From a virus: a DNA stretch of 41,367 nt. The translations under genes and the position numbers were made by a program. Position 1 is the first letter of the stretch, and every line of letters begins with the position of its first letter. Below the pieces are notes generated by a model, which saw only the letters and a list, made by a program, of their open reading frames with translations, had not been told where the DNA came from and made no database searches. The stretch covers positions 1-41,367 of IMG/VR virus record IMGVR_UViG_3300036768_000096; one strand, written 5' to 3'. This document shows positions 1,425 through 15,080 of this stretch, one piece after another.

Positions 1425-4400
1425 TTACGGCCCCATCTTCTCCGCGACCTTGCCCCACAGCTTGGCTTTCTTCTCCTGCTGGTAGGCGGCCTTATCGGCA
1501 AACTCATCGGCCGTTATCTGTTTCGTCTGCAGTTGCCGCTTCAGCTGCGCAATCTGCTTGTCGATCTCCATCTCCTCGGCACGGGTCTTCGCCATCAGGT
1601 TTCGACGCAGCACGTCGGCGGGGTAGGCTCCAACTTTCACGCCGACGGAGCTAGCGATGGCCATCGGCACGCTCATTTCGCGTCCGAAGGCGTCGGTGCG
1701 CCCGCTCATCGCGCCGGCTACTCCCTCGGTGGCGTAGGTGTTCGGCACGCCCAGCAGGTTCGGCATGAAGGCCTTCCACAGGTGGTCGATGATCTTCCCT
1801 GTCTGCTCCGCGCCGGTGTCGGTCTCCAGCACGATCGGCTTGCCGGTGAACGCGCTCTTGTTGAAGGCGATCTCGCCAAGGATCACCAGCGGGCCGCCCG
1901 GGTACAAGGCCGGCGGAAGCGGCAGCGCGGCATGCCCGGCGTCGAGGTCCACGACATCGCCAACAGGTATCCAGCGGCGGATGTCCAGGTACACCGGCGA
2001 TCCGTTGGCGTCGTTCCACGGCATGCGGATGAGTTTCGGCACCAATCCCCAGATCCGCCCGGCCTTCTCCTCTGGCAGCAGCTTGCGCTCATCGTCGCCT
2101 CCGCCAAGAGCACCTCCAAGCCAGTTCAGGACGCCGGCGATGGCCATGAGCTTCAGGATCTTGTGCGGCCTCTTGCCGGCCGTCTCCAGCAGCATCGGCA
2201 CGGCGCGGTACGTGAAGGCCACGAACGGCCACGCGGACGCGCGCATCGCGGCCACCCACGGCGCGTTAATCGAGTAGTCCAAAAACGACCGGCGCGCGAC
2301 CTTGCCGGCCTCGGCGTCGCTCATTCCCTGCTCCTTGGCCTTAAGCCACGCGGCCAGCCGGAAAACGTCATCCTCGGCCTGGTACAGGTCGATCAAGTTC
2401 TTGCCGTCGGTGGCCACCGCGGTGGCAGGGCGCGATGCCTTGAACGCCTCCCAGGCCTGCGGGAACCGACGATGCATCAAGTGCTGCAGCGCGGCGTACA
2501 CGCCGATCTCCTGCGGCGCGGCCTGCGCGGCGGTGCCCGCCAACTCGGCCCGCAGCGCGGCGACGATGGGCTCCATCTGCTCGTTGGCGATTTCCTGCGT
2601 CACCCAGCCGCCGATGGCGCCACCGCTGATCTGATAGCGCGACAGGATCTCGCGCGCGGCCTCGGCGTCCGGCAAACCGGCGATCGCCAGCGCGTTGCCG
2701 GCGCGGCCCAGCACGCCCGTGCCGTCACGCTGGCTCGCGCCGAGGATGATGCGTAGCGACTTCGCCACGTGCCCGGCCGACACGTCGTGCCAGTCGGCCA
2801 TCACGAAGTTGGCCATGATGTTGTTGGTATGCACGCCCGGGGACAGCGCCGTCTTGGCGGTCTTCCACATGCGCAGGATCTGGTGGTACGTCTCGCCGAG
2901 GGGCTTGAACTGGCCGTTCACCACTTGGCGCAGGTCGTTCCAGATCGGACCGGGCAGGTAGCGCCCGGCCAGCGCGCCGTACTTCTGCACGCTGGTGCCC
3001 GGGATCTTGGCGTCGGGCACGAGAACCCACTCGTCTGGCTTGAAGGAGTCCCTGTACCGCTCCGACGCCTCGACGATCTTGCCGGTAATCACCTCGCCCG
3101 GCTTCTTCGCATACCGATGCGCCAGCCACTCCAGGTAGCGCCCCACCTCTATGTCGTGGATCATGCGATGCAGCGTCTTGGCGATGGCATAGCGCGCCTC
3201 GTCGATCTCGCCCATCTTCATGCGCTCAGCCTTCGTGAAGTCGCGCCAGAGGATCACGTCGTCACCCTTGGTGTCGCGCACCTCCCAGGCGCCGGCCGAC
3301 TCCCAGTCGGCGTACTTCGCGGGCTTGACCTCGCCCACCGGCCAGTAGTGCACTTCGAGCAGCTTGCCCGGCCGGGTGTTCTCGCCCATGCCGTCCAGGC
3401 TCATCGTGCCGTCGCCGCGGGGCGCGCGGCGCTCCAGCCGCTCGAACTTCTCGCCCTTCAAGCTGGTGTCGGCCTTGCCCGCCACCAGTTTGCGCTTCCA
3501 CCATTCGGGCGCGACGTTCTGGATCTGGCGCATCGGTGCCTTCGCGACCATGCCGCGGCCCTTGTACTGGTCGCCCAGGATCGTCAGCACGCGCTCCTTG
3601 CGGGCGCGGTCGCTGGCCGTCATGTCCTGCGCGTCCAGGTGCTCGTGCTTGAAGTAGCTGCGGCGCAGATAGGCGAACCGGTGGCGCTCAAAGGCCTCGG
3701 GCTCCAGCTGACCCAGGCGAACGGCCTCCTTCGACAGCCCGTCGATCATGTCGCGCACCTGGCGCAGCACGGCGACCGACTCCTCCGGCAGCGCCTGCAT
3801 CAGTTCGTCGGCGGTACGGGTGTCCTCGCCGGTCATCCATTCGTAGGCCACGCGGCTCTCGGCCCGGGTCATGGTGGCCAGCTTCTCCAGCAGCTTGCCG
3901 GCCTGGCGCAGTTGCTCGCGCTGGCTGCCCGTCATCTGCGCGCGCTGGTCGATCACGGCCTCTGGCACGCCGTAGTCGGACACCAAGCCGGCCTTCACGC
4001 GCTCGGGCGTGATGCGGTCGATCAGGCGCGCGCCGAGGCCGTAGAGGGACGCGGCCGCGCGCTCGATGCCGGTCACGCGGGAAAACCCGCGCACAACCGC
4101 GTCGATCGGCTTCGGCGCGCGGGCAGCGTTGCGGATGATGGCCTCGGCGCGGTCGGCCGGGGTCGGCGCGGTGGCCGGCGCGGTGTTGCCGCCGGCGGCG
4201 GCGCGCGACAGCATCACCTCGGCCGGGTTCTCCTGGCGCCACTCCGCGGCCAGGCGCTCGAAGCGCGGGTAGTCCTTCTCCAGCATGTCCTCGATCGAGG
4301 CATAGCCAGCGGCCAGCGCCTGCTCCGTCAGCCACTTCTCCTGCGCGGCCAGGTCGTCGGCCAGCCGGCCGGTGGACAGCGCGGTGCCGGCCGGCGCGCG

Positions 4401-7400
4401 GCCGGGCTTGCGCGCCACGTAGGCGCGGGCGGCGCGCACGAGGTCGGCCACAAGCAGATCGGCGCGCTGCTGCTCGGTCAGGTAGCCGGCGAGCCAGTGG
4501 TCGATGAGGTTCGCGGTGCGCTCGAAGCCGCGCGCGCGCAGCGCGTCGCGAACCTTGCCCACGAGCGCGCGCCAGCCCTTCAGGCGCGCCAGGCGCGCGG
4601 CCGGAATGTCGACGATCACCTCCTCGACGGCCTCGGCCAGCGTCATCCCCTGCTTGATCAGCGGCGCTGCGGCGCGGCGCACATCCGTGCTCTGGTTGTG
4701 CAGCGCCTGCATGGCTGCATTCAGGCCGGCGCCCAGCAACCCGCGCAGGCCGGCGTGCGCGGCCTCGTGCTCGGCCAGCACGAATTCGGCGCGTGCCTCG
4801 TCGGCCAAGCCGGACGCGAACAGGTAGATCTTCCCGTCGTGCAGCGCGCCCTCCACGTCGCCCCAGGCGCCCCGGCGCATGATGATCGACTGCAGCGCGG
4901 CCGGCGCGTGCGACGGGTCCGGCAGCACGACGACGGGCGGCAGGCCCGGCAGCTTCTCGACTACGCGGTCGCGCACGGCGCGCAGCGCGGCCAAGTCCAT
5001 GCCGCCGCCGGCGCCGCGGGACAGCCTTGCGCCGTCTTTGTCCTCCGGCTTCGAGGCGCCTTCGATGGCGCGCCAGTCGCCGGGCGTGCCGCCGTTCGAC
5101 GCGACGGCCTTCTCGATCGCGCGCTCGGCGCTGCTGGCCTGCACGTCGAAGCCCAGGCCGGTGTCGATGCGCTCCACGCGCCACGTGCGTTCCTTCGAGT
5201 CCGCGGCGATCTGGGCCTCGAGGTCGGCCGCCTCGCGCAGCTTGCCGGCCAGGATCTCCGACATCGGAAACGGGGTTTCCAGACGAGGGCGCAGCGCGTC
5301 GGCGGTCGACTCGGCCTGCGCGATCTTCTCGCGCAGGCGCTCCGGCGTGCGCGCCACGTCGGCCACGGCATTGACGGCGCGCATGGCCATGCCCAGCGGG
5401 TTCTCGTCGCCGACGGAGATCAGCATCACGGGCTCCGGCGTGGCCAGTTCGACGTGCCACGTGTACGAGCTCTCGGTCTTCGTCGACACGTAGCGCACCG
5501 GGAAGCCTGACACGTCTCCGATCGTCGCCGACGGCGCCACGTTGGCGGCCAGCTTGCCGGCCTCGGCCTTGAGGGCGTCGGCCCATTCGGTGCGGTTGGT
5601 GAAGGTCTTATTCCCGGCCTTGGCCACGAAGCGGTTGCCAGACAGGTCGCGCGCCTTGCCCGCCAGCGCCTCGGCTTCGGGCAGTTTCTGGCGTAGGAAG
5701 TCCGCGGTCATCAGCGCGCGGCTGAACTCCGATCGGAAGCCCTGCCGCTGGTCCTCGTGCGCCCGGTACAACCGCTGCAGTTTCTCGGCCTCTGCCTTCA
5801 GCCCGGCCAGTTGCAGCACGCGCGGATCTTCGGCCACCAGAGCCGCGGCCATGTCGTACTGGCTCACGGAATCCAGGTCCTCGATCTCGCGCAGGTTCTC
5901 GTCGCCGGACAGCGCCTGGTCGATGAAGAACTGCTTGCGCGCCAACATGCCCCACATCGTCTCGTCGTAGCTGCCCTTGGCGGCGTAGGCGTGGATGCGC
6001 ACGACCTTGTTCTTGTTGCCCTGGCGGATGATGCGGCCCTCGCGCTGCTCGAGGTCGGCCGGGAACCACGGCGAATCCAGGTGGAACAGGTTCAGCAGGC
6101 GCTGCTGGGCGTTGACGCCCGTTCCCATGTTCTTTGACGACCCCACGAGGATGCGCACGCGGCCGGCGTTGAGGTCGCGGAACAGCTTCAGCTTGTCCGT
6201 CGACTTCTTGTAGTCGGACATGAACGCTACCTGCGAGGCCGGCACGCCGGCGTCGCGCAGCCGCTTCTCCATCCAGGCGCGCGCGCTGAATCCGCGGTTG
6301 GCGGATACGCCCTCGCCAAATCCAAGATCGGAGAACACCATCATGGTCGCGCCCTTGATCGGCTCCGGTGTATCGTCATTGACGTAGTACTCCATGTCCG
6401 CCGTCGTCTTGAACGCGGCGATCACGTCGTCGATCATGCGGTTCAGCTTGGAGTCAGGATCGTTGGGCGCCTTCGGGTTGATGAAGCGCATGTCGATCGC
6501 GGCCAGCCGGCCATCGCCGATGATCGCGATGACGGGATCCGGGTTGTTCGGCTCGTCCTTCGACGGCTTCCATGCGCGCGATGCCTCGTAGCGCGCCGCC
6601 AGCACCTTCTGGTATTCGGCGTAGGCCTTCGTCTTCGGCGTGACGATGATCCGCCGCGACCCGCCGTCGACCTTCGGGCGCGAGCTGCCCAACAGCGCAG
6701 ACAACTTGTCGCTCGTCAACACGTCAGCGAACTGACGGAACATCTGCGTGAGCTCGGCCACGTTAACGAACTTGTTGAAGCGCGTCACGGGTTCATATCG
6801 GCCGGCGGCGTTGGACTCCAGCGTGGTGCGCTCGCGACCGAACATCGCGGCCCACGAGTCGAAGTCCTCGATGCCGCGGTCGATCAGCGCCTGCCTGTCC
6901 ATGAACCTCTGCACGGTATACAGCTCGGCCAGAGTGTTTGTAACAGGCGTACCGCTCGCCATCACCAGCGAGCGGCCCGGCCTCTTCTCCTCCAGGTAGC
7001 GAGCCTTGATGTAGAGGTCGAGCGCCTGCGCGCTGCCATCCGGCTGGATTCCTTTGACCTTGCGCGCCGTGGCGAAGTCAAGCTTGCGGTAGGCGTGCGC
7101 CTCGTCCACGTAAAGGAAGTCGACGCCGAGTTCGTCGAACCGTACGTTGCGGTCCTTGCCGACCCCGGAGAGCGCGTTCTTCAGCTTCTCCTCCAGGTTC
7201 TCGATCTGCTTCTCGATCTGCTTGATCCGGGGAGACTTCTTCTTGCTGCCGCCATCCTCCTCACCCTTGGCCTCATCCAGCGAAGCGCGCAGGTAGTCCA
7301 ACTGCTCGTCGATGATCTTCGCCTTGAACGACGGGTCGATATCGAGCAGCTTGAATGCTGATTGCGTGATGATCACGCCATCCAGGTTCGACAGCGCCAC

Positions 7401-10400
7401 CCGGGCGGCCCAGCGGCGCCGGTTGTCGGTGTGGAACCCATTCTCGTCGGCCACCATCAGCCTAGCCGTCGGGTAGAGCTCCTGCCACTCGCGCGCGAAC
7501 TGCTGCAGCATGTGGTTGGGCACGACGACCATTGGCTTCTTGATCATGCCCAGGCGTTTCTGCTCCATCGCGCTGATCACCATCTGGAACGTCTTGCCGC
7601 TGCCGACGGCGTGCGCGAGGTAGGTGTTGCCAGACTGCACGATGCGCCAGGCGCCGCGCTTTACGTGGTCGTGGATTGCAAATGCCTTCGATGTGCCTGG
7701 AAGCGTCAGGTGCCGGCCGTCGAAAGACCGCGGAACGGTGGTGTTGAACTTGTCGTTGTAGATGCGCACCAGGCGGTTTGTCCGCTCGGCGTCGGACCAC
7801 ACCCACTTGCTGAACTCCTCCTTCAGCGCCTCCAGCTTGGCGTTTGCGGCCTCGGTCGCGTCGGCGTCGAACACCTGCTTGATGTCCCTGCCAGTTCGAA
7901 CGGTCTTCATGACGCTGACCGGGCGGCCGGTCAGCGCGTGCTCGAGAAGTTCGCCCGCGTGGCGCGACGAAGTGCCCCAGTCGGCGGTCGCAGCTCGGTT
8001 GCGTTCATCCACGCTTCCCATCTGCACGACCCACTGCCGCGTTGCCTCGTTGAAGCTGATGTGCGCACGAATGCCGGCGGTACGCTGCAGGAACTGCTCG
8101 TAGACGCTGCCCGGGATCCAGTTCATGCCCAGGCTGATGTCAATCTGCGCAGGGGTCTTCGGCGCCGGCTGCACGGCGCGCAGGGCATCGACGTTGCGTT
8201 CGTAGCGGCGGTCTGCCTTGGCGGCTTCCTCGGCTGCCTGCAGCTTGCGCTTGACGTTGCCCGACAAATACTGGTCCGCGGTCTCCCACTTCCCACCCTC
8301 GGGGTTCTCGTAGATGGCCGACCCCAACGCCTCGATCACGGCCTCTGGCTCCATGTCGATGCGCTCGGCGATCATGTCGATGTTGACCTCGCCGGTGTCG
8401 TTCAGCACGGACAACAGCGCGTCGGCCGGCGTGGCGATCCGCGCGCGCTCCGGCGCGCCGAGCACGCGGCTGGTCAGGAATGGCGACGGTGACGTTGCGC
8501 CCGTCTCCTCGTCGACCTTCTCCAGCGCGGCAACGAGCGTCCAGTCCGGGTCGTCGTTGAGCTTCTGCAGCAACGGGTAGACGCGGCGCTCCTCCACGTC
8601 ATCGACCTTGCGGCCGGTCGGGTTTCCGTTCTCGTCGATCTCGTCGATCTTCACGCGCACGTTACGCGCGACGCTCTGGTTCACGGCCCCGTTCTTGTCG
8701 GTGAAGGCCTTGTATGCGGCCTGCAGCGCCTTCAGGCTCGACTCCCAGTCGCCACCGTTTAGCTGGTCGTAGTGCGCCTGCTTCAACGCATCGCGCAGCG
8801 GCACGAAGTCCTTCAGCAGTTTGATATACTTCGTCGCCTTGCCGATCACGGCCTTGCCGACGCCTTCCTCGCGCTGCATAAGCACGCCGGCATCGGTGAC
8901 GTAGTAGTTCCCCTCCTTCTGCGCCTTCGGGTTGAAGTCGATCTCGCGCACGACCGCGGCCTCGGCCGCCGACCCGCGCGCCGGTCGGTACACGTCGGCC
9001 GGCATCCGCTCGACGGCCGCAGCAAACAGCGCCTCGATGTCGCCCTCGGGCGCCAGCACGGTGTACTGCGGCTCCGGGTTGTTCTGCATCTTCCCGGTGT
9101 CGCTGGGCGTGCCCAGCACCATGTCCGGGTGAGCGTGGAAATACTCGTTCACCTGGAACTCGCGCGAGCCTACCTTCATCGGCAACGACTTCGACCACGG
9201 CTGCGCGCCGGCAAACGTCTCGCCTGGTACCTTCTTGCGCAGGAACAGCACATCCGTCACCACGTCGGTGCCGGCGTTCTGCTTGAACGCGGTCTGCGGC
9301 AGGCGGATCGCGCCCACCAGACCGGCGCGCGCGGCCATGTAGGTGCGCGCCTTGTCGGTGAGCTTGTCCATGGTGTAGCGGCTGGTGACGAACATCACCA
9401 GGCCACCCGGCCGCACGCGGTCGATCGTCTTCGCAAAGAAGTAGTCGTGCAGCGCGAACGCATGCTTGGCGTACTCCGGGTCCGACAGAATCTTGGTGCC
9501 GGAGAACGGCGGGTTGCCGATCGCCAGGTCGTAGAAGTCCCGCGGAAGTTTCGTTTCCTGGTACCCCTCGACGCGGATCAGTTCGTCTGGCTGCAGCTGC
9601 GCCAGGATTCCGCCGGTGATCGAGTCGTATTCGATGCCGGTATAGGAAACGTTGGCGGCCAGCGCGTCTGGCATCAGGCCCGGGAATATGCCGATGCCGG
9701 CGCCGGGCTCTAGCACCATGCCGCCCTTGAACCCGAACCGCTCGGCCGCGGCCCACATCGCACGCACCACGCCTTTCGATGTGTAGTGCGCGTACTGAGT
9801 CGAGCGAGATGCCTCGGCCCATTCTTCTGGGGTCATCGCCTTCTTCAGGCGGTCGCGCAGTTCCAGCCAGCGCAGCGTGACCGGCTCCGGCTTGATCGTC
9901 TCCAGGTCGGCCAGTGTGATCCGATCTGGATAGCCCATCGGCTTGCCGGCGAGTCGCATCGCGTCCAACGCCGTGTAGTAGTCGGCGTCGGCGTAGTCGC
10001 CGCGGTATGTGCCGCCCTTGCGCAAGTAGTCGCGCTTGAGCGAGGCCATGGCCGCCTTGACCCGCTCGTATGCGTCCGCCAGCTTGCGCACCTTGTCCAG
10101 CTTGTCGCCGAACAAGTTGTTGGCGATCTCGCTGGCGCCCCAGCCGATGAACTTCGCCAGGACGCGCTGCTCGTCAACGGTTGCCTGCCGGCCCTCGGCC
10201 TGCAGCTTCTTCAGCAGTTCGACGGCCTCGACGTTGCGCTCGGCCTTCTTCTGCCATGACCCCTCGTAGGTGAGGTCGTCGTCGGTCAGTCGGTAGTTTC
10301 GTCCGGACTTTGGCTTGATGTCTCGTCCGGCGGGAACTGCAGCACCTCGGCGAGAGCGATTTCGCGCGCGATACTCTCGGCCGCTTTCATCCGCGCTGCG

Positions 10401-13400
10401 TTCTCCAGCAGCGGCAGGCGATCCCACCCCTCGCGCAGGCGCTGCTCCATCACCGCTGTCGTCACCTGCTCTTTGATCTGCGACTCCAGATCGCGGATTG
10501 TCGACATCAGCCGACCGGATGCCTTCAGGTCCGCGTACATCCTCGGCGCCTTGTCGCGCATCGCCGCCTCGATCGTCTGCTGCAGTTGCGTCATCATTGG
10601 CCCCGAATAGCGAGCCCTGAGCATACCCGGAAGAACCATGATCCGGTACAATGGATGTCGGAGATACTGAATTGAAACTGCCTGACAAATTCCCCGAAGG
10701 CTGCCGGTTCGTGTCGGACTTCTCCGGCGACGACTGGGTGGCCTTCCCTGACGGGCGGGTCTTCAAGCTGGACGACTCGTCCGGCGAGCTGCGCGAGGCG
10801 CGGTCGCTCCCGCCGCGAGGCGCGCCCTCCAGCGAAGCAGCCTTCCGCGAGGCAGCGGCCGCAGCTGCGGCTCGGTAGAGGTCGGACTGGGCCGCCTCGA
10901 CGGCCTGCTGCACCTGGGATCCCTTCGGCTGGCCGCGCTCCACCTCGTAGAGCTTGTGGCCCTCGTTCTGCTTGGCGGCCAGCATTTCGGGCACGTTGAT
11001 CTGGATCTCCGCGACGGAGCCGTTCGGCATCACCACGTTGATCAAGACGTCGCCGTAGCCTGACGGCAGGAAGCCGCGACGGCCGGTCACGTCGGGCGCC
11101 TGGATCTTGGCGTCGGTGCGGTCCTTCACGCGGCCTGGCATCACGTTGAACTCGCGGTAGATCTCGTCGACCACCGCCTGCGCGTCGGCGTAGCTGCTCA
11201 CGACGATGGTCGAGCGCAGCAGATCCTTCAGCGCGGTCGTGTCCATCGACCCGTCGGCCGCGCGCGGCTCCATCACCAGTTTCTCGCTCGCGCGCTTGAC
11301 GGACTTCAGCGGCGCGAGCATCTGCCCCAGCGCGCCGGTCCGCTGCGCGATGTCGATGATCTTCTGGTCGTAGGCGACCTTCTCGGCGGCCGAGCGCTCG
11401 AGCATGGGTTTGACCAGCGCCTCGGCCTGCGCGCGCTCCTCTGGAGAGATCTGCAGCGGCGGCGCTTCCTTGGCGAACTTGGCGATGTACCCGCGCACAC
11501 GGTCAAGCAGTTCCTCGCTCAGGAACTCGTCGGTGCGCGGCGGCTTGAAGTTGTGGCGCTTGGCGTCGTAGGCCTCGCCGTTGATCATCGCGGCGCGCGG
11601 GCGATCATCCCGATCCGGCTGCCCGTCGAACAACCCGCCCTGCGCCGGCTTCTCCGGCTGCGAGAACAGGTCGCCGCCGTAGCCATGGCCGGAGGCACCA
11701 CGCTCGATCGCCTGCAGCGCGGCCTTGCGGTAGGTCTCGTCGCTGACCTTGTTCCAGAGCTTCCTGTACTCCGGGTCGGCCTTCAGGCGCTGCTTCACCC
11801 ATGCGGTTGCGCGCCGGATGTCGGTGCCGACGATGGCGATCGCCTCGCTGAACATCTTCACCAGCGTCGGCATCAGGCCTGGTGTGTTCTCCGGCACCAT
11901 CGCGGCGCGCTGGTTCTTGGTCAGGATCGCGGCCAGGTCGCCGGCGGCCTCGTAGAACCGCTCGACGTGCTCGGCGCGCTTCTCGCGCAGCGCCTCGCTC
12001 TCGTTCGACACGGTGGTGCCGGAGAACTCGCGCACGGCGTCCAGCAGCTGGTCGATCGGCGCGTCGAAGCGACGGATCTCCACCGGCTCCCGGTTCATGG
12101 CACGAGCCAACCACCGGTGGTGCCCGTCCAGCACGTAGCCGTCGGACGACACCAGCACGCCGGCGGCGTCGCCCTGCAGCGAGCGAGCGCCCTCCACCTT
12201 CTCCGGAGAGAACTCGGCTTGCGTCGGCTTCAGGTCGGCCGCGGCCACCGTCTCGGTCGTGCTGCCGATGCCCATCGACTCCAGGAAGGCGTACAGCTTC
12301 GGCCGCAGCTTCAGTTTCACCTGCGGCATCTTCGCGCGCGGAATCCCTAGCGTTCCAGAAGCCGGCGGGAACTTGACCCAACCCTGACCTTTCGCCTCGT
12401 TGGCGGCTACTGCTGGCGCGGCTTCACCGCCTTCATTGCTGCGGCCAGCGCCCGGCGCAGTTTCGGGTTCGAGTCCAGGCGCTGCGCCAGCGCGCGCAGC
12501 CGCTCGATCGTCTCCACGGCTGGATTCTTTGGTAGCGCCATTTGTGGTTCCTTGCGTGGGTACATTTTTGGCTCCTTGCGTGGTGCGGCGCGCAGCGCCC
12601 ATGAGGTCGATGGCGGTCGGCGGCTTCACGTCGCCCAGCAGCGAACCCTGCGCCGGGTCGCCGGCGGCGTCGAGCGCGTCGAAGTAGGCGGTGATGAATT
12701 CGGCCACCTTGCGCGGCCGGCGCACGTTGTCCGCCAGGAAGCGGATCAACTCGCGCGTCTCGGGCGAGAACTCATCGCCCAGCAGCCCGGCCTGCGCCAG
12801 AGCGTCGTCGACCGACGTGCCCTGCTCCTTCAGGCGCGACAAGGTGTCGGCGGCGTCGACGAGGTGCGGCGTCAGGTCAGCGTCGAAAAGCCGGCCGTCG
12901 CCGATGGCGGCGCGCGCCTTGGCCACGCGCGGCGCGGCGATCAGCAGCGCCTTGCTGATGTTGCGCTGGTTGTCGTCCATTGACTCGACCAGTCGCGTCA
13001 GGATCGCCGAGTCGCCATAGGCCTTGGCCAGCACGGCGTTGCGCACGCGCGAGTAGCCGGCGGTCGACAGCCGGCCGTCGGCGTCGATCATCCCCGCCTG
13101 CTCGGTCTGCGGCAGCCGGGCGATGAAGCGGCGGATGAACTCGCGCGACCTGGAGAAGTCGCCATCGTCGGTCGGCCGCAGGTCGTCCATGGCGTCCACC
13201 CGGGCGGCGTCGGCCTTCGCCTGCTCGGCCGGCGACATCTGCGCGACGGTCGAGGCGTTGGCCTGTCGCGCGAATTCGGCCCGATCCACGGGCGTCGAGC
13301 GCACGCGCACCAGCACCGGCTGCTGCATGCCGTCGACCTGCTCCGGCGACAGGCCGAACTGATTCGCGTTCTGGCGCAGCCAGTCCTTGTAGTTCTCGGC

Positions 13401-15080
13401 CTTCTGGCCGCGCGCCTGGTATATGCGCTTGAGCGCGATCGTGCGAGCGTTGCCGGATTCCACCAGCCCGTCGTCGCCGACGATCGGCGCGCCGGTAGCG
13501 GCGTCGGCGGACAGGCCCAGGCGCGCAGGGTCCATCCGGCCGACGATGTTCTGGATCTGCAACGCGCTCGCAGCACGCTCTCGATTGCGCGGCTGCAGTT
13601 CCGGCGGGTAGTTCGGGTTTGGCCGCAGGTTCACGTCGTGCGAGGTCTGCAGGTCGTCAGCCTCGACCAGTGAGTAGCGGCCACCGAGGCGCCTGCCGTC
13701 CTCGGTGGTGAACGTGGTGTCGTTCCCGCGCACCTCACGAATGGCGGGTCTGGCCGGGTCGCCGGACCGCTGGTCCGGCTCAGGCATCAGCACTTCTTGG
13801 GCTTGGTCTTCTTCTTGGCCATTTGGCACTCCTGCTACCGCGGCCTGCGGCGCGGTTTCCGCTTCTGGCACTGCGCCAAGAATCTCTGCGGCATCGATGG
13901 ATCCGGAGGCGCCTGGAGCGGTTGCAACGCGGTCCGCGGCTTCCGGCGCCATCGGCTGGACGTCCGCAGGCGGTGTACTTGCTCCGTCCGCGCTGTCGCT
14001 TGGATTGGCCGGTTCCGGCTTGCCACCGCGCCGGTAGTCCATAACCATGCGCCCGGCCGTCATGCTGCTGCCCAAGGCGCCGCCAAGCGCCGCGCCTTCG
14101 CCAGCAGCCGAACCAACACCCTGCCAGCGGTCCCGTGTCGGGTCGACGGACTGCACGGCCTCGTTGATGGCCAGCCGGCCGAAGCCCTCCTCGATCCCTT
14201 CCTGCCGCGCCTCGCCGGTGAAGGCATGCGCAATCTCTTTCAACTTCGCGCCTGGCGGCAACTTGCCCACTAGCGCGCGCTCCATGGCCGCGCCGTGTGG
14301 AAGCATCGAAGAAAGCACCGACGCAAGACCCGCCTGTGCAGTCGCCATGAAGGCCTTGTCATTGATGAGCCGCGCCTTGGCCTCGTCCGGCCCAACCTGA
14401 TCGGCAAGCGCCTTGAACTCCGGGATCTGCTCCCAAAGCTTGTCAGGCAGTGCCATTAGTTGCTTTTGCGTTTCTGAGCCTATATCCACGCCCTGAAGCA
14501 CAGCGCCGGTGCCGACGGCGCCCGCCGTGCCGGCGCCTTCCACGGCGGCCTTACCGACGCGCGTTGCAGCAATATTCGGTGCTACGCGCTCCACGCTATT
14601 CGCCGCCGCATCCGCTACACGGCCGCCCATGCGAGTCATGCCAAGCAGGCCAAGCTGCGAAGCGAAGGCGTTTGCCAGCAGCTTCGGATCGCTCATCAGC
14701 GTGTAGGCGCTCGCCAAGGCCTCGCCTGTCTCGCGCGCAGCGGTAGCGATAGCGCCGTCACCGCCGCCAACGGCTCGCTGCGCTAAGGTGCCAACGTTGC
14801 GGATGATGTTCTGGCGCGTTTTCTCGCGCTGTTGCAGGTCCTGCGACTTTTGGTCGTCGATCGACTCGCCGAACTCGTCCAGAGCCTGGACACCGGGGCC
14901 ATACCACTGGCCTGTGATGGCGCGATCAGCAACGGCAGCCGGCAGCTTGGCAGCGGTGACCAAGCCGCCAAGCGCCGACGCGCCAAGGTCCTTCAGCCAG
15001 TCAAGCCCGGAGCGGTCATCGGTTGCTGGGGCGTCAGGGACGAAGCGGCCAGACGGGGCCGGATCGGGCACAAATGGCAT
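1425..15080 (-). CDS. Giant multidomain polyvalent virion-type protein (4,551 aa)
   Basis: One uninterrupted frame of 4,551 codons from ATG at 15080. Domains in order: helical, alanine-rich N-terminus with hydrophobic stretches (1-340); linker; DdrB/ParB-like domain (about 470-600, GNART from G543); helical region to 800; second ParB-like domain (about 905-1010, GHHRW from G986); RelA/SpoT-like nucleotidyltransferase-fold domain (about 1285-1375, KDR from K1319, EIQ from E1358); low-complexity linker (about 1400-1600); N6-adenine methyltransferase (about 1600-1960, EPGAG from E1791, NPPF from N1856); SNF2-like helicase (about 2440-3050, GSGKT with K2496, DEAH from D2659, QREGRIIRQG from Q3012); zincin peptidase (HEAAH from H3438); and a C-terminal region with hydrophobic segments near 4280-4325. 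This is the composition of polyvalent proteins of phages and conjugative elements. Bcep22-like phages carry a virion-associated protein of this size thought to aid DNA entry. Small genes are embedded in three linkers. Confidence 0.95.
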   Translation of the reverse strand: MPFVPDPAPSGRFVPDAPATDDRSGLDWLKDLGASALGGLVTAAKLPAAVADRAITGQWYGPGVQALDEFGESIDDQKSQDLQQREKTRQNIIRNVGTLAQRAVGGGDGAIATAARETGEALASAYTLMSDPKLLANAFASQLGLLGMTRMGGRVADAAANSVERVAPNIAATRVGKAAVEGAGTAGAVGTGAVLQGVDIGSETQKQLMALPDKLWEQIPEFKALADQVGPDEAKARLINDKAFMATAQAGLASVLSSMLPHGAAMERALVGKLPPGAKLKEIAHAFTGEARQEGIEEGFGRLAINEAVQSVDPTRDRWQGVGSAAGEGAALGGALGSSMTAGRMVMDYRRGGKPEPANPSDSADGASTPPADVQPMAPEAADRVATAPGASGSIDAAEILGAVPEAETAPQAAVAGVPNGQEEDQAQEVLMPEPDQRSGDPARPAIREVRGNDTTFTTEDGRRLGGRYSLVEADDLQTSHDVNLRPNPNYPPELQPRNRERAASALQIQNIVGRMDPARLGLSADAATGAPIVGDDGLVESGNARTIALKRIYQARGQKAENYKDWLRQNANQFGLSPEQVDGMQQPVLVRVRSTPVDRAEFARQANASTVAQMSPAEQAKADAARVDAMDDLRPTDDGDFSRSREFIRRFIARLPQTEQAGMIDADGRLSTAGYSRVRNAVLAKAYGDSAILTRLVESMDDNQRNISKALLIAAPRVAKARAAIGDGRLFDADLTPHLVDAADTLSRLKEQGTSVDDALAQAGLLGDEFSPETRELIRFLADNVRRPRKVAEFITAYFDALDAAGDPAQGSLLGDVKPPTAIDLMGAARRTTQGAKNVPTQGTTNGATKESSRGDDRAAARAGAAPGLEPETAPGAGRSNEGGEAAPAVAANEAKGQGWVKFPPASGTLGIPRAKMPQVKLKLRPKLYAFLESMGIGSTTETVAAADLKPTQAEFSPEKVEGARSLQGDAAGVLVSSDGYVLDGHHRWLARAMNREPVEIRRFDAPIDQLLDAVREFSGTTVSNESEALREKRAEHVERFYEAAGDLAAILTKNQRAAMVPENTPGLMPTLVKMFSEAIAIVGTDIRRATAWVKQRLKADPEYRKLWNKVSDETYRKAALQAIERGASGHGYGGDLFSQPEKPAQGGLFDGQPDRDDRPRAAMINGEAYDAKRHNFKPPRTDEFLSEELLDRVRGYIAKFAKEAPPLQISPEERAQAEALVKPMLERSAAEKVAYDQKIIDIAQRTGALGQMLAPLKSVKRASEKLVMEPRAADGSMDTTALKDLLRSTIVVSSYADAQAVVDEIYREFNVMPGRVKDRTDAKIQAPDVTGRRGFLPSGYGDVLINVVMPNGSVAEIQINVPEMLAAKQNEGHKLYEVERGQPKGSQVQQAVEAAQSDLYRAAAAAAASRKAASLEGAPRGGSDRASRSSPDESSSLKTRPSGKATQSSPEKSDTNRQPSGNLSGSFNSVSPTSIVPDHGSSGYAQGSLFGANDDATAADDRGGDARQGAEDVRGPEGIRSADVDNPRSGVADQRAGDDSGDGAAPARGVGSPAAAGERSADESGREYRARNRSRRGAAVPAGRDIKPKSGRNYRLTDDDLTYEGSWQKKAERNVEAVELLKKLQAEGRQATVDEQRVLAKFIGWGASEIANNLFGDKLDKVRKLADAYERVKAAMASLKRDYLRKGGTYRGDYADADYYTALDAMRLAGKPMGYPDRITLADLETIKPEPVTLRWLELRDRLKKAMTPEEWAEASRSTQYAHYTSKGVVRAMWAAAERFGFKGGMVLEPGAGIGIFPGLMPDALAANVSYTGIEYDSITGGILAQLQPDELIRVEGYQETKLPRDFYDLAIGNPPFSGTKILSDPEYAKHAFALHDYFFAKTIDRVRPGGLVMFVTSRYTMDKLTDKARTYMAARAGLVGAIRLPQTAFKQNAGTDVVTDVLFLRKKVPGETFAGAQPWSKSLPMKVGSREFQVNEYFHAHPDMVLGTPSDTGKMQNNPEPQYTVLAPEGDIEALFAAAVERMPADVYRPARGSAAEAAVVREIDFNPKAQKEGNYYVTDAGVLMQREEGVGKAVIGKATKYIKLLKDFVPLRDALKQAHYDQLNGGDWESSLKALQAAYKAFTDKNGAVNQSVARNVRVKIDEIDENGNPTGRKVDDVEERRVYPLLQKLNDDPDWTLVAALEKVDEETGATSPSPFLTSRVLGAPERARIATPADALLSVLNDTGEVNIDMIAERIDMEPEAVIEALGSAIYENPEGGKWETADQYLSGNVKRKLQAAEEAAKADRRYERNVDALRAVQPAPKTPAQIDISLGMNWIPGSVYEQFLQRTAGIRAHISFNEATRQWVVQMGSVDERNRAATADWGTSSRHAGELLEHALTGRPVSVMKTVRTGRDIKQVFDADATEAANAKLEALKEEFSKWVWSDAERTNRLVRIYNDKFNTTVPRSFDGRHLTLPGTSKAFAIHDHVKRGAWRIVQSGNTYLAHAVGSGKTFQMVISAMEQKRLGMIKKPMVVVPNHMLQQFAREWQELYPTARLMVADENGFHTDNRRRWAARVALSNLDGVIITQSAFKLLDIDPSFKAKIIDEQLDYLRASLDEAKGEEDGGSKKKSPRIKQIEKQIENLEEKLKNALSGVGKDRNVRFDELGVDFLYVDEAHAYRKLDFATARKVKGIQPDGSAQALDLYIKARYLEEKRPGRSLVMASGTPVTNTLAELYTVQRFMDRQALIDRGIEDFDSWAAMFGRERTTLESNAAGRYEPVTRFNKFVNVAELTQMFRQFADVLTSDKLSALLGSSRPKVDGGSRRIIVTPKTKAYAEYQKVLAARYEASRAWKPSKDEPNNPDPVIAIIGDGRLAAIDMRFINPKAPNDPDSKLNRMIDDVIAAFKTTADMEYYVNDDTPEPIKGATMMVFSDLGFGEGVSANRGFSARAWMEKRLRDAGVPASQVAFMSDYKKSTDKLKLFRDLNAGRVRILVGSSKNMGTGVNAQQRLLNLFHLDSPWFPADLEQREGRIIRQGNKNKVVRIHAYAAKGSYDETMWGMLARKQFFIDQALSGDENLREIEDLDSVSQYDMAAALVAEDPRVLQLAGLKAEAEKLQRLYRAHEDQRQGFRSEFSRALMTADFLRQKLPEAEALAGKARDLSGNRFVAKAGNKTFTNRTEWADALKAEAGKLAANVAPSATIGDVSGFPVRYVSTKTESSYTWHVELATPEPVMLISVGDENPLGMAMRAVNAVADVARTPERLREKIAQAESTADALRPRLETPFPMSEILAGKLREAADLEAQIAADSKERTWRVERIDTGLGFDVQASSAERAIEKAVASNGGTPGDWRAIEGASKPEDKDGARLSRGAGGGMDLAALRAVRDRVVEKLPGLPPVVVLPDPSHAPAALQSIIMRRGAWGDVEGALHDGKIYLFASGLADEARAEFVLAEHEAAHAGLRGLLGAGLNAAMQALHNQSTDVRRAAAPLIKQGMTLAEAVEEVIVDIPAARLARLKGWRALVGKVRDALRARGFERTANLIDHWLAGYLTEQQRADLLVADLVRAARAYVARKPGRAPAGTALSTGRLADDLAAQEKWLTEQALAAGYASIEDMLEKDYPRFERLAAEWRQENPAEVMLSRAAAGGNTAPATAPTPADRAEAIIRNAARAPKPIDAVVRGFSRVTGIERAAASLYGLGARLIDRITPERVKAGLVSDYGVPEAVIDQRAQMTGSQREQLRQAGKLLEKLATMTRAESRVAYEWMTGEDTRTADELMQALPEESVAVLRQVRDMIDGLSKEAVRLGQLEPEAFERHRFAYLRRSYFKHEHLDAQDMTASDRARKERVLTILGDQYKGRGMVAKAPMRQIQNVAPEWWKRKLVAGKADTSLKGEKFERLERRAPRGDGTMSLDGMGENTRPGKLLEVHYWPVGEVKPAKYADWESAGAWEVRDTKGDDVILWRDFTKAERMKMGEIDEARYAIAKTLHRMIHDIEVGRYLEWLAHRYAKKPGEVITGKIVEASERYRDSFKPDEWVLVPDAKIPGTSVQKYGALAGRYLPGPIWNDLRQVVNGQFKPLGETYHQILRMWKTAKTALSPGVHTNNIMANFVMADWHDVSAGHVAKSLRIILGASQRDGTGVLGRAGNALAIAGLPDAEAAREILSRYQISGGAIGGWVTQEIANEQMEPIVAALRAELAGTAAQAAPQEIGVYAALQHLMHRRFPQAWEAFKASRPATAVATDGKNLIDLYQAEDDVFRLAAWLKAKEQGMSDAEAGKVARRSFLDYSINAPWVAAMRASAWPFVAFTYRAVPMLLETAGKRPHKILKLMAIAGVLNWLGGALGGGDDERKLLPEEKAGRIWGLVPKLIRMPWNDANGSPVYLDIRRWIPVGDVVDLDAGHAALPLPPALYPGGPLVILGEIAFNKSAFTGKPIVLETDTGAEQTGKIIDHLWKAFMPNLLGVPNTYATEGVAGAMSGRTDAFGREMSVPMAIASSVGVKVGAYPADVLRRNLMAKTRAEEMEIDKQIAQLKRQLQTKQITADEFADKAAYQQEKKAKLWGKVAEKMGP
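10286..10594 (-). CDS. Embedded 102-aa gene inside a linker of the giant gene
   Basis: Same strand as the giant gene but another frame. The likely product starts at the ATG at 10594 (MTQLQQTIEAAMRDKAPRMY) and ends in the acidic tail LQFPPDETSSQSPDETTD. It is a regular amphipathic helical protein and resembles small phage and mobile-element proteins that precede adenine methyltransferase-helicase genes. By hand count about 81% of its codons end in G or C, the host-like pattern, whereas the giant frame over the same bases shows only about 50%. Upstream ATG or GTG starts up to 10651 are possible and no candidate has a strong ribosome site, so expression is uncertain. Function unknown. Confidence 0.55.
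   Translation of the reverse strand: MTQLQQTIEAAMRDKAPRMYADLKASGRLMSTIRDLESQIKEQVTTAVMEQRLREGWDRLPLLENAARMKAAESIAREIALAEVLQFPPDETSSQSPDETTD
10672..10878 (+). CDS. Embedded antisense 68-aa gene inside the giant gene
   Basis: A plus-strand frame in the same linker, head to head with the embedded gene at 10286-10594. The best start is a TTG at 10672 with GGAG at 10660-10663, spacing 8; an in-frame ATG lies at 10651. The product begins MKLPDKFPEGCRFVSDFSG, has an aromatic-rich beta-like stretch (DDWVAFPDGRVFKL), and ends in an alanine-rich tail. The first bases are AT-richer than the surroundings, as at real gene starts. The third codon positions of this frame coincide with those of the giant frame, so part of its coding look could be borrowed. 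Function unknown. Confidence 0.4.
   Translation: MKLPDKFPEGCRFVSDFSGDDWVAFPDGRVFKLDDSSGELREARSLPPRGAPSSEAAFREAAAAAAAR
12407..12565 (-). CDS. Embedded 52-aa (or 44-aa) gene inside a second giant-gene linker
   Basis: Begins at ATG 12565 with AAGGAG a few bases upstream, or at the in-frame ATG 12541 with AAGGA seven bases upstream, and stops at TAG 12409-12407. From the second start the product reads MALPKNPAVETIERLRALAQ and continues as a basic amphipathic helix to KPRQQ. About 84% of codons end in G or C; the giant frame over the same bases has about 48%. The two starts lie in a tandem near-duplication of the ribosome site. It falls in the linker between the DdrB-like region and the second ParB-like domain. 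Function unknown, but the ribosome sites are among the best in the window. Confidence 0.6.
   Translation of the reverse strand: MYPRKEPQMALPKNPAVETIERLRALAQRLDSNPKLRRALAAAMKAVKPRQQ
13787..13822 (-). CDS. Embedded 11-codon lysine-rich leader-like gene
   Basis: ATG at 13822 preceded by AGGAG at 13833-13829 (spacing 6) opens MAKKKTKPKKC followed by TGA. All eleven codons end in G or C, while the giant frame over the same bases is rich in A/T-ending codons. The stop overlaps a giant-frame ATG (Met432, base 13787) as TGATG, the coupling arrangement used throughout this genome, so translation of this short gene could restart at Met432 and give a second, N-terminally shorter product. The shortness limits confidence. 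Confidence 0.4.
   Translation of the reverse strand: MAKKKTKPKKC

Follow-up and report, generated by a model that had tools for sequence, protein, structure and literature searches.

The giant DarB-like polyvalent gene of the virus studied here holds a second, small gene. It is read from the same strand in the +1 frame, codes for a helical protein of 102 aa related to the TnpV family and, judged by its conservation, is in all likelihood a real gene which has been maintained. Because the same frame relation recurs across phages and Gram-positive ICE-like elements, the nesting did not, as far as the sequences tell, come about by recent chance in this phage. To our knowledge few long nested genes are conserved across phyla.

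By the window we mean the whole stretch of DNA that was analysed, which is one complete IMG/VR virus record of 41,367 bases. The following features of the window are referred to below.

1425–15080, minus strand: giant DarB-like polyvalent gene, 4551 aa, with ddrB-ParB, methylase, SNF2 helicase and more
9381–10250, minus strand: beginning of the giant protein's methylase module, the anchor by which relatives were located
10253–10880, minus strand: low-complexity linker of the giant protein, approximately aa 1401–1610, giant-frame GC3 down to 0.43
10286–10594, minus strand: nested gene, shifted by +1 against the giant frame; begins with ATG and codes for the small helical TnpV-related protein (102 aa)
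10601–10604, minus strand: GGGG, a weak Shine-Dalgarno-like site ahead of the nested start; GGAGG-like there in most relatives
10605–10619, minus strand: giant-frame QGSLF, similar to the QLxLF motif of some other linkers
10647–10652, plus strand: TACAAT, a −10-like hexamer; the antisense gene starts exactly 25 nt downstream of it
10660–10663, plus strand: GGAG, Shine-Dalgarno-like site of the antisense gene
10672–10878, plus strand: antisense gene for a small protein, (M/L)KLPDKFPEGC..., probable TTG start

The giant gene and the small gene inside it

The giant gene of about 13.7 kb contains the ddrB-ParB domain (PF18763, 119.5 bits against a cut-off of 27.6), and the mid-part of its product matches phrog_10089 (PHROG 10089, DarB-like antirestriction, 1711 bits). 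A preliminary description of this DNA had spoken of a ParB/RelA-like part and a methylase-helicase part. It has the dyad of adenine methylase and SNF2 helicase which, like the ddrB-ParB domain, is common to it and the DarB-like polyvalent proteins (Bcep22-like phages; DarB and DdrB of P1). The nearest annotated relatives of the giant gene are found in Burkholderia podoviruses of the Bcep22 type. The giant DarB-like protein of phage JC1 was detected in virions by mass spectrometry with 51 unique peptides (PMC9144972), and the giant protein of the window virus may be packaged and injected.

The nested gene lies in the linker that joins the N-terminal part of the giant protein, with ParB, to the part with the methylase and the SNF2 helicase. 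It starts with an ATG at 10594, which is immediately preceded by a second ATG at 10597, stops at 10286, ends with the C-terminus LQFPPDETSSQSPDETTD and lies with its whole length inside the giant frame. The coordinates given in the preliminary description were exact. The GC content of the three codon positions in the embedded frame is 0.65/0.45/0.81, the last figure being the share of G/C-ending codons claimed before; for the giant frame, where about 50% had been stated for a low-complexity stretch, we measure a GC3 of approximately 0.45 over the nested gene as against 0.90–0.95 on either side and 0.87 overall. AlphaFold2 gives a confident four-helix model of the nested protein (pLDDT 87). Foldseek and VIA-align found no usable structural match for this model, an absence which is no evidence for a new fold, and family profile searches found no match to a nuclease or recombinase family.

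Maintenance of the two frames

Long alternative ORFs are frequent in the GC-rich window, and one could hold that the embedded frame is open and homologous-looking as a by-product of GC-rich sequence and of the constraint on the giant frame. The substitutions tell against this. They gather in the overlap at position 3 of the embedded codons (position 1 of the giant codons) in the four larger comparisons, i.e. they follow the embedded frame. The amino-acid identity over the overlap is higher in the embedded than in the giant frame in all six groups except for one tie (0.82 versus 0.77, 0.69 versus 0.55 and 0.66 versus 0.46 among them). By this measure the small gene's frame is the better conserved of the two. 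The preliminary description had named two findings that would count against it, an embedded frame without homologues and purifying selection in the giant frame only; neither was observed, though selection also keeps the giant frame open.

The starts of the nested genes were compared with background ATGs in the same frame. A Shine-Dalgarno match of at least 5 nt was found at 67 of the 75 nested TnpV starts and at 427 of 6898 (6%) background ATGs, a comparison which favours the nested set somewhat because each nested start was chosen by its best Shine-Dalgarno match. The expected number of stops was obtained by swapping giant-frame codons for synonyms at the usage of the giant gene. Over the nested gene the giant frame is stop-free in 29 of 29 phage loci, where 0.5 to 7.4 stops are expected in each, and in 75 of 75 further TnpV loci, where the mean expectation is 6.3 stops; the simulations treat related loci as separate, so that any figure combined from them is overstated. 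The effect holds in the lower-GC loci, which individually lie below 0.01 in the simulation.

A natural control was offered by 30 TnpV loci from 15 genomes. Thirteen of them are nested within ORFs of 842–954 aa (lengths which are cut on one side by the end of the locus), and the 17 standalone TnpV genes have no ORF longer than 116 aa in any other frame. Since the giant frame stays open though stops are expected, and since standalone TnpV genes lack such a frame, we conclude from the sequence comparisons that both the nested and the giant frame are maintained by selection. The by-product reading is contradicted by the substitution pattern, by the Shine-Dalgarno and stop tests and by the control with standalone TnpV, a family to which the nested gene is akin; its probability must be considered negligible.

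The linker contains one more ORF, on the opposite strand, which has homologues in the corresponding position of 11 further loci and belongs to no known family. Upstream of the antisense start TAnAnT recurs at the exact spacing of 25 nt in 11 of 12 loci, against a background density of 0.0004, and the starts are preceded by Shine-Dalgarno sites. AlphaFold2 predicts five strands and a helix for the antisense protein (pLDDT 86), a model for which Foldseek gave no match, and in 8 of 9 loci the antisense frame is the only one in which the GC content of codon position 1 exceeds that of position 2. Conservation alone cannot separate the antisense frame from the giant frame because the two share their third positions, and the identities are similar (0.37 and 0.35). 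The notion that the antisense ORF is a shadow of the giant frame was dropped on the fixed promoter-like spacing, the Shine-Dalgarno sites and the confident model. Judged by these sites and by the predicted structure the antisense ORF is very probably a real gene that is oriented divergently to the nested gene; the giant linker runs over both. Scanning 10200–11000 for the sigma-70 consensus, which requires a match to the −35 sequence, gave nothing. With all antisense homologues the alignment proved too diverse to scan contigs; with two sequences it worked.

Relatives in phages and ICE-like elements

No relative was found by tblastn of the window protein against phages and plasmids, nor by single-protein scans of viral and genome contigs. 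The relatives were reached through the modules which flank the nested gene in the giant gene; 46 viral loci were fetched in this way and searched in six frames. Homologues of the embedded protein (E 1e-27 to 1e-8) were present in 29 loci at the first pass and in about 47 phage loci after iteration, a count that includes Bcep phage records, some of them near-identical. Every one of these genes lies on the strand of the giant gene, before the methylase module and in the +1 frame. In BcepIL02, CSP3, JC1 and DC1 it is unannotated. In one locus (L068, 1275–1535, minus strand) the nested TnpV-like gene is apparently truncated, and the giant frame there is still open.

The search of the embedded frame against phage and mobile-element proteins, proposed in the preliminary description, thus found homologues in phages, and it also led to TnpV (PF14198), the family of Tn4451-type and ICE-borne proteins. 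One locus (L040) has a clear TnpV at the nested position, the Pfam profile is matched by 14 of 26 nested proteins (best member E 1.3e-40), and a profile-profile comparison (hhalign) of the window's group with TnpV gave a probability of 96% and E 3.5e-9 over 79 columns, the homology being in the helical core. The window protein itself scores 18.8 bits against PF14198 (E 0.0016), under the gathering cut-off of 27 bits, and the N-terminal YTxxGDYxxP segment of TnpV is absent from it and from the other phage proteins. For these two reasons we classify it from its sequence as TnpV-related and not as a TnpV.

An alignment of the methylase module was used to collect the 80 best bacterial genome loci and 79 further viral loci. 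Of the 80 bacterial loci, mostly Firmicutes ICE-like elements, about 65 have a TnpV-like gene inside the giant methylase/SNF2 ORF; being the best-scoring loci, mostly from Clostridia and Paenibacillaceae, the 80 do not make up an unbiased census. Of the 79 viral loci 38 have such a gene. L106, where a single stop interrupts the ORF downstream of the nested gene, was counted as nested. The frame is +1 always, so TnpV itself is nested in giant methylase/SNF2 genes in the same frame as the window gene. The spacing differs: in the ICE-like loci an N-terminal domain precedes the nested gene, and up to 4 kb may separate this gene from the methylase that follows, whereas in the phage loci it is close to the methylase. 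Among 40 viral loci without a TnpV match a small +1 ORF preceded by a Shine-Dalgarno site adjoins the methylase in 31, and a +2 ORF in one. These ORFs directly before the methylase are diverse (L162, L175, L191, L206, L217 and others); they have a core like W...P.MY..L...G.L and no significant match to TnpV, and are possibly further divergent members of the family.

The nesting has consequences for annotation. In the record of locus L055 TnpV is annotated at 6022–6354 and the SNF2 gene at 8271–12351, though the giant frame is open already from 5160 on; the nested gene is the probable cause of this shortened annotation. In four loci (L112, L147, L150 and L172) the giant ORF is shortened, and a second TnpV ORF, of the standalone type, starts some 10–25 nt ahead of its end, which looks as though the snf2 gene had received a mobilizable element. 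Insertions of mobilizable elements into this gene have been described (PMC9815147).

Origin of the overlap and possible functions

The preliminary description saw in the segment a giant frame overprinting an older small gene which had stood between two separate genes. A real and better conserved small gene does lie under the linker, and since the linker is of low complexity a plausible and simplest reading of the segment is that the giant linker was laid over an existing small gene. The free copy did not turn up: among the loci searched there is no relative in which the halves of the giant gene are separate genes with the small gene between them.

It is a more specific claim that stops were lost in this phage lineage and that two genes which flanked a free small gene were joined in this way. 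The linker would fit with its low complexity and inverted codon-position GC, with a small gene which is the better conserved frame, and with a divergent antisense gene which gives it the look of an intergenic region. In phage P1 ddrB (the ParB part) and darB (the methylase-helicase part) are indeed separate genes; P1 differs from the window, however, in that darB starts at the methylase and no TnpV-like or other such small gene was found nested inside it. The nesting also recurs with different N-terminal partners, including very short ones (L182, L199, L207), and the event is then not local to the window phage. With no relative that has the small gene free between the halves, we find a fusion in this lineage rather unlikely. 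Overprinting would instead probably have happened long ago, by extension of the giant frame across a small gene that was already there. The P1 gene iddB, annotated antisense within ddrB (L258, 26577–26975), was considered as a counterpart and rejected, being unrelated to the nested and the antisense gene of the window.

The small gene could also be a mobile unit which inserts into the linkers of giant genes. TnpV is associated with transposons and present on many mobilizable elements, its position relative to the methylase differs between ICEs and phages, and HNH genes of the ShiLan type, described as actively homing insertions in phage methylases (PMC11855218), are likewise genes in another frame which keep the host frame open. 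The product of these genes is an HNH endonuclease unrelated to the window protein, which has no nuclease or recombinase kin in the profile searches; the nested gene is a near-universal resident and not scattered, and precise empty sites were not seen among the loci compared. The distances of TnpV and of the methylase are correlated (r 0.65, reached in 0 of 2000 permutations), which fits joint inheritance of the two sequences. We consider insertion of a mobile unit improbable.

In a TnpV tree, which is weak (76 rows, 116 columns, midpoint-rooted), the standalone copies form a few groups within the nested diversity. Such a tree suggests that the nesting is old, and from the placement of the standalone copies some of these forms may be escapes from nesting.

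It should be noted that small genes fully nested in another frame are known from phages, as with Rz1 in Rz of the spanins, with other proteins, another function and a host gene other than a 13.7-kb polyvalent gene. The papers on TnpV which were consulted handle it as an ordinary gene and go no further than postulating its function, and the treatment of polyvalent proteins by Iyer et al. (2017; PMC5512222) mentions neither TnpV nor overlaps. No report of TnpV-type nesting in giant methylase genes was found in open papers, and the nesting is provisionally regarded as novel.

The small protein would most likely be made by internal initiation on the mRNA of the giant gene. As the small gene stays nested in the giant gene across phages and conjugative elements, we tentatively propose that its product works with the giant methylase-helicase, for instance as a regulator, chaperone or loading partner during DNA entry. 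TnpV is also found alone, so that it is not strictly tied to the giant gene. For TnpV of Tn4451 a part in excision has been postulated by homology with lambda Xis (PMC3158075), and the nested copies might accordingly serve phage or ICE as excision factors. The predicted structure consists of helices throughout and has none of the strands of a winged helix, and the gene sits in an anti-restriction gene and not beside an integrase; an Xis-like role therefore has little to recommend it.

Pentapeptides of the QLxLF type are enriched in the giant-frame linkers. They occur (for example in L083, L084 and L119) in 20 of 67 ICE linkers, at 1.13 per 1000 aa versus 0.06 elsewhere, often directly after the end of the nested gene. 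These motifs, the QGSLF of the window included, presumably resemble sliding-clamp-binding motifs.

A wider proposal, which we hold to be somewhat doubtful, is that the nested gene is an obligate and ancient part of the methylase-SNF2 polyvalent system, a +1 partner present in nearly every such giant gene of phages and ICEs. One locus would then give rise both to the protector of incoming DNA and to its regulator. The TnpV genes on mobilizable elements that carry resistance would be escaped copies of this partner.

A widespread family of anti-restriction giant genes thus contains a nested gene which is unannotated in the phages examined, and which in ICEs can make annotation cut the giant gene short, as in L055. 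The nesting gives the DarB-like proteins a concrete candidate partner and TnpV a native context, and the many loci constitute a large natural data set for the evolution of overprinted genes.
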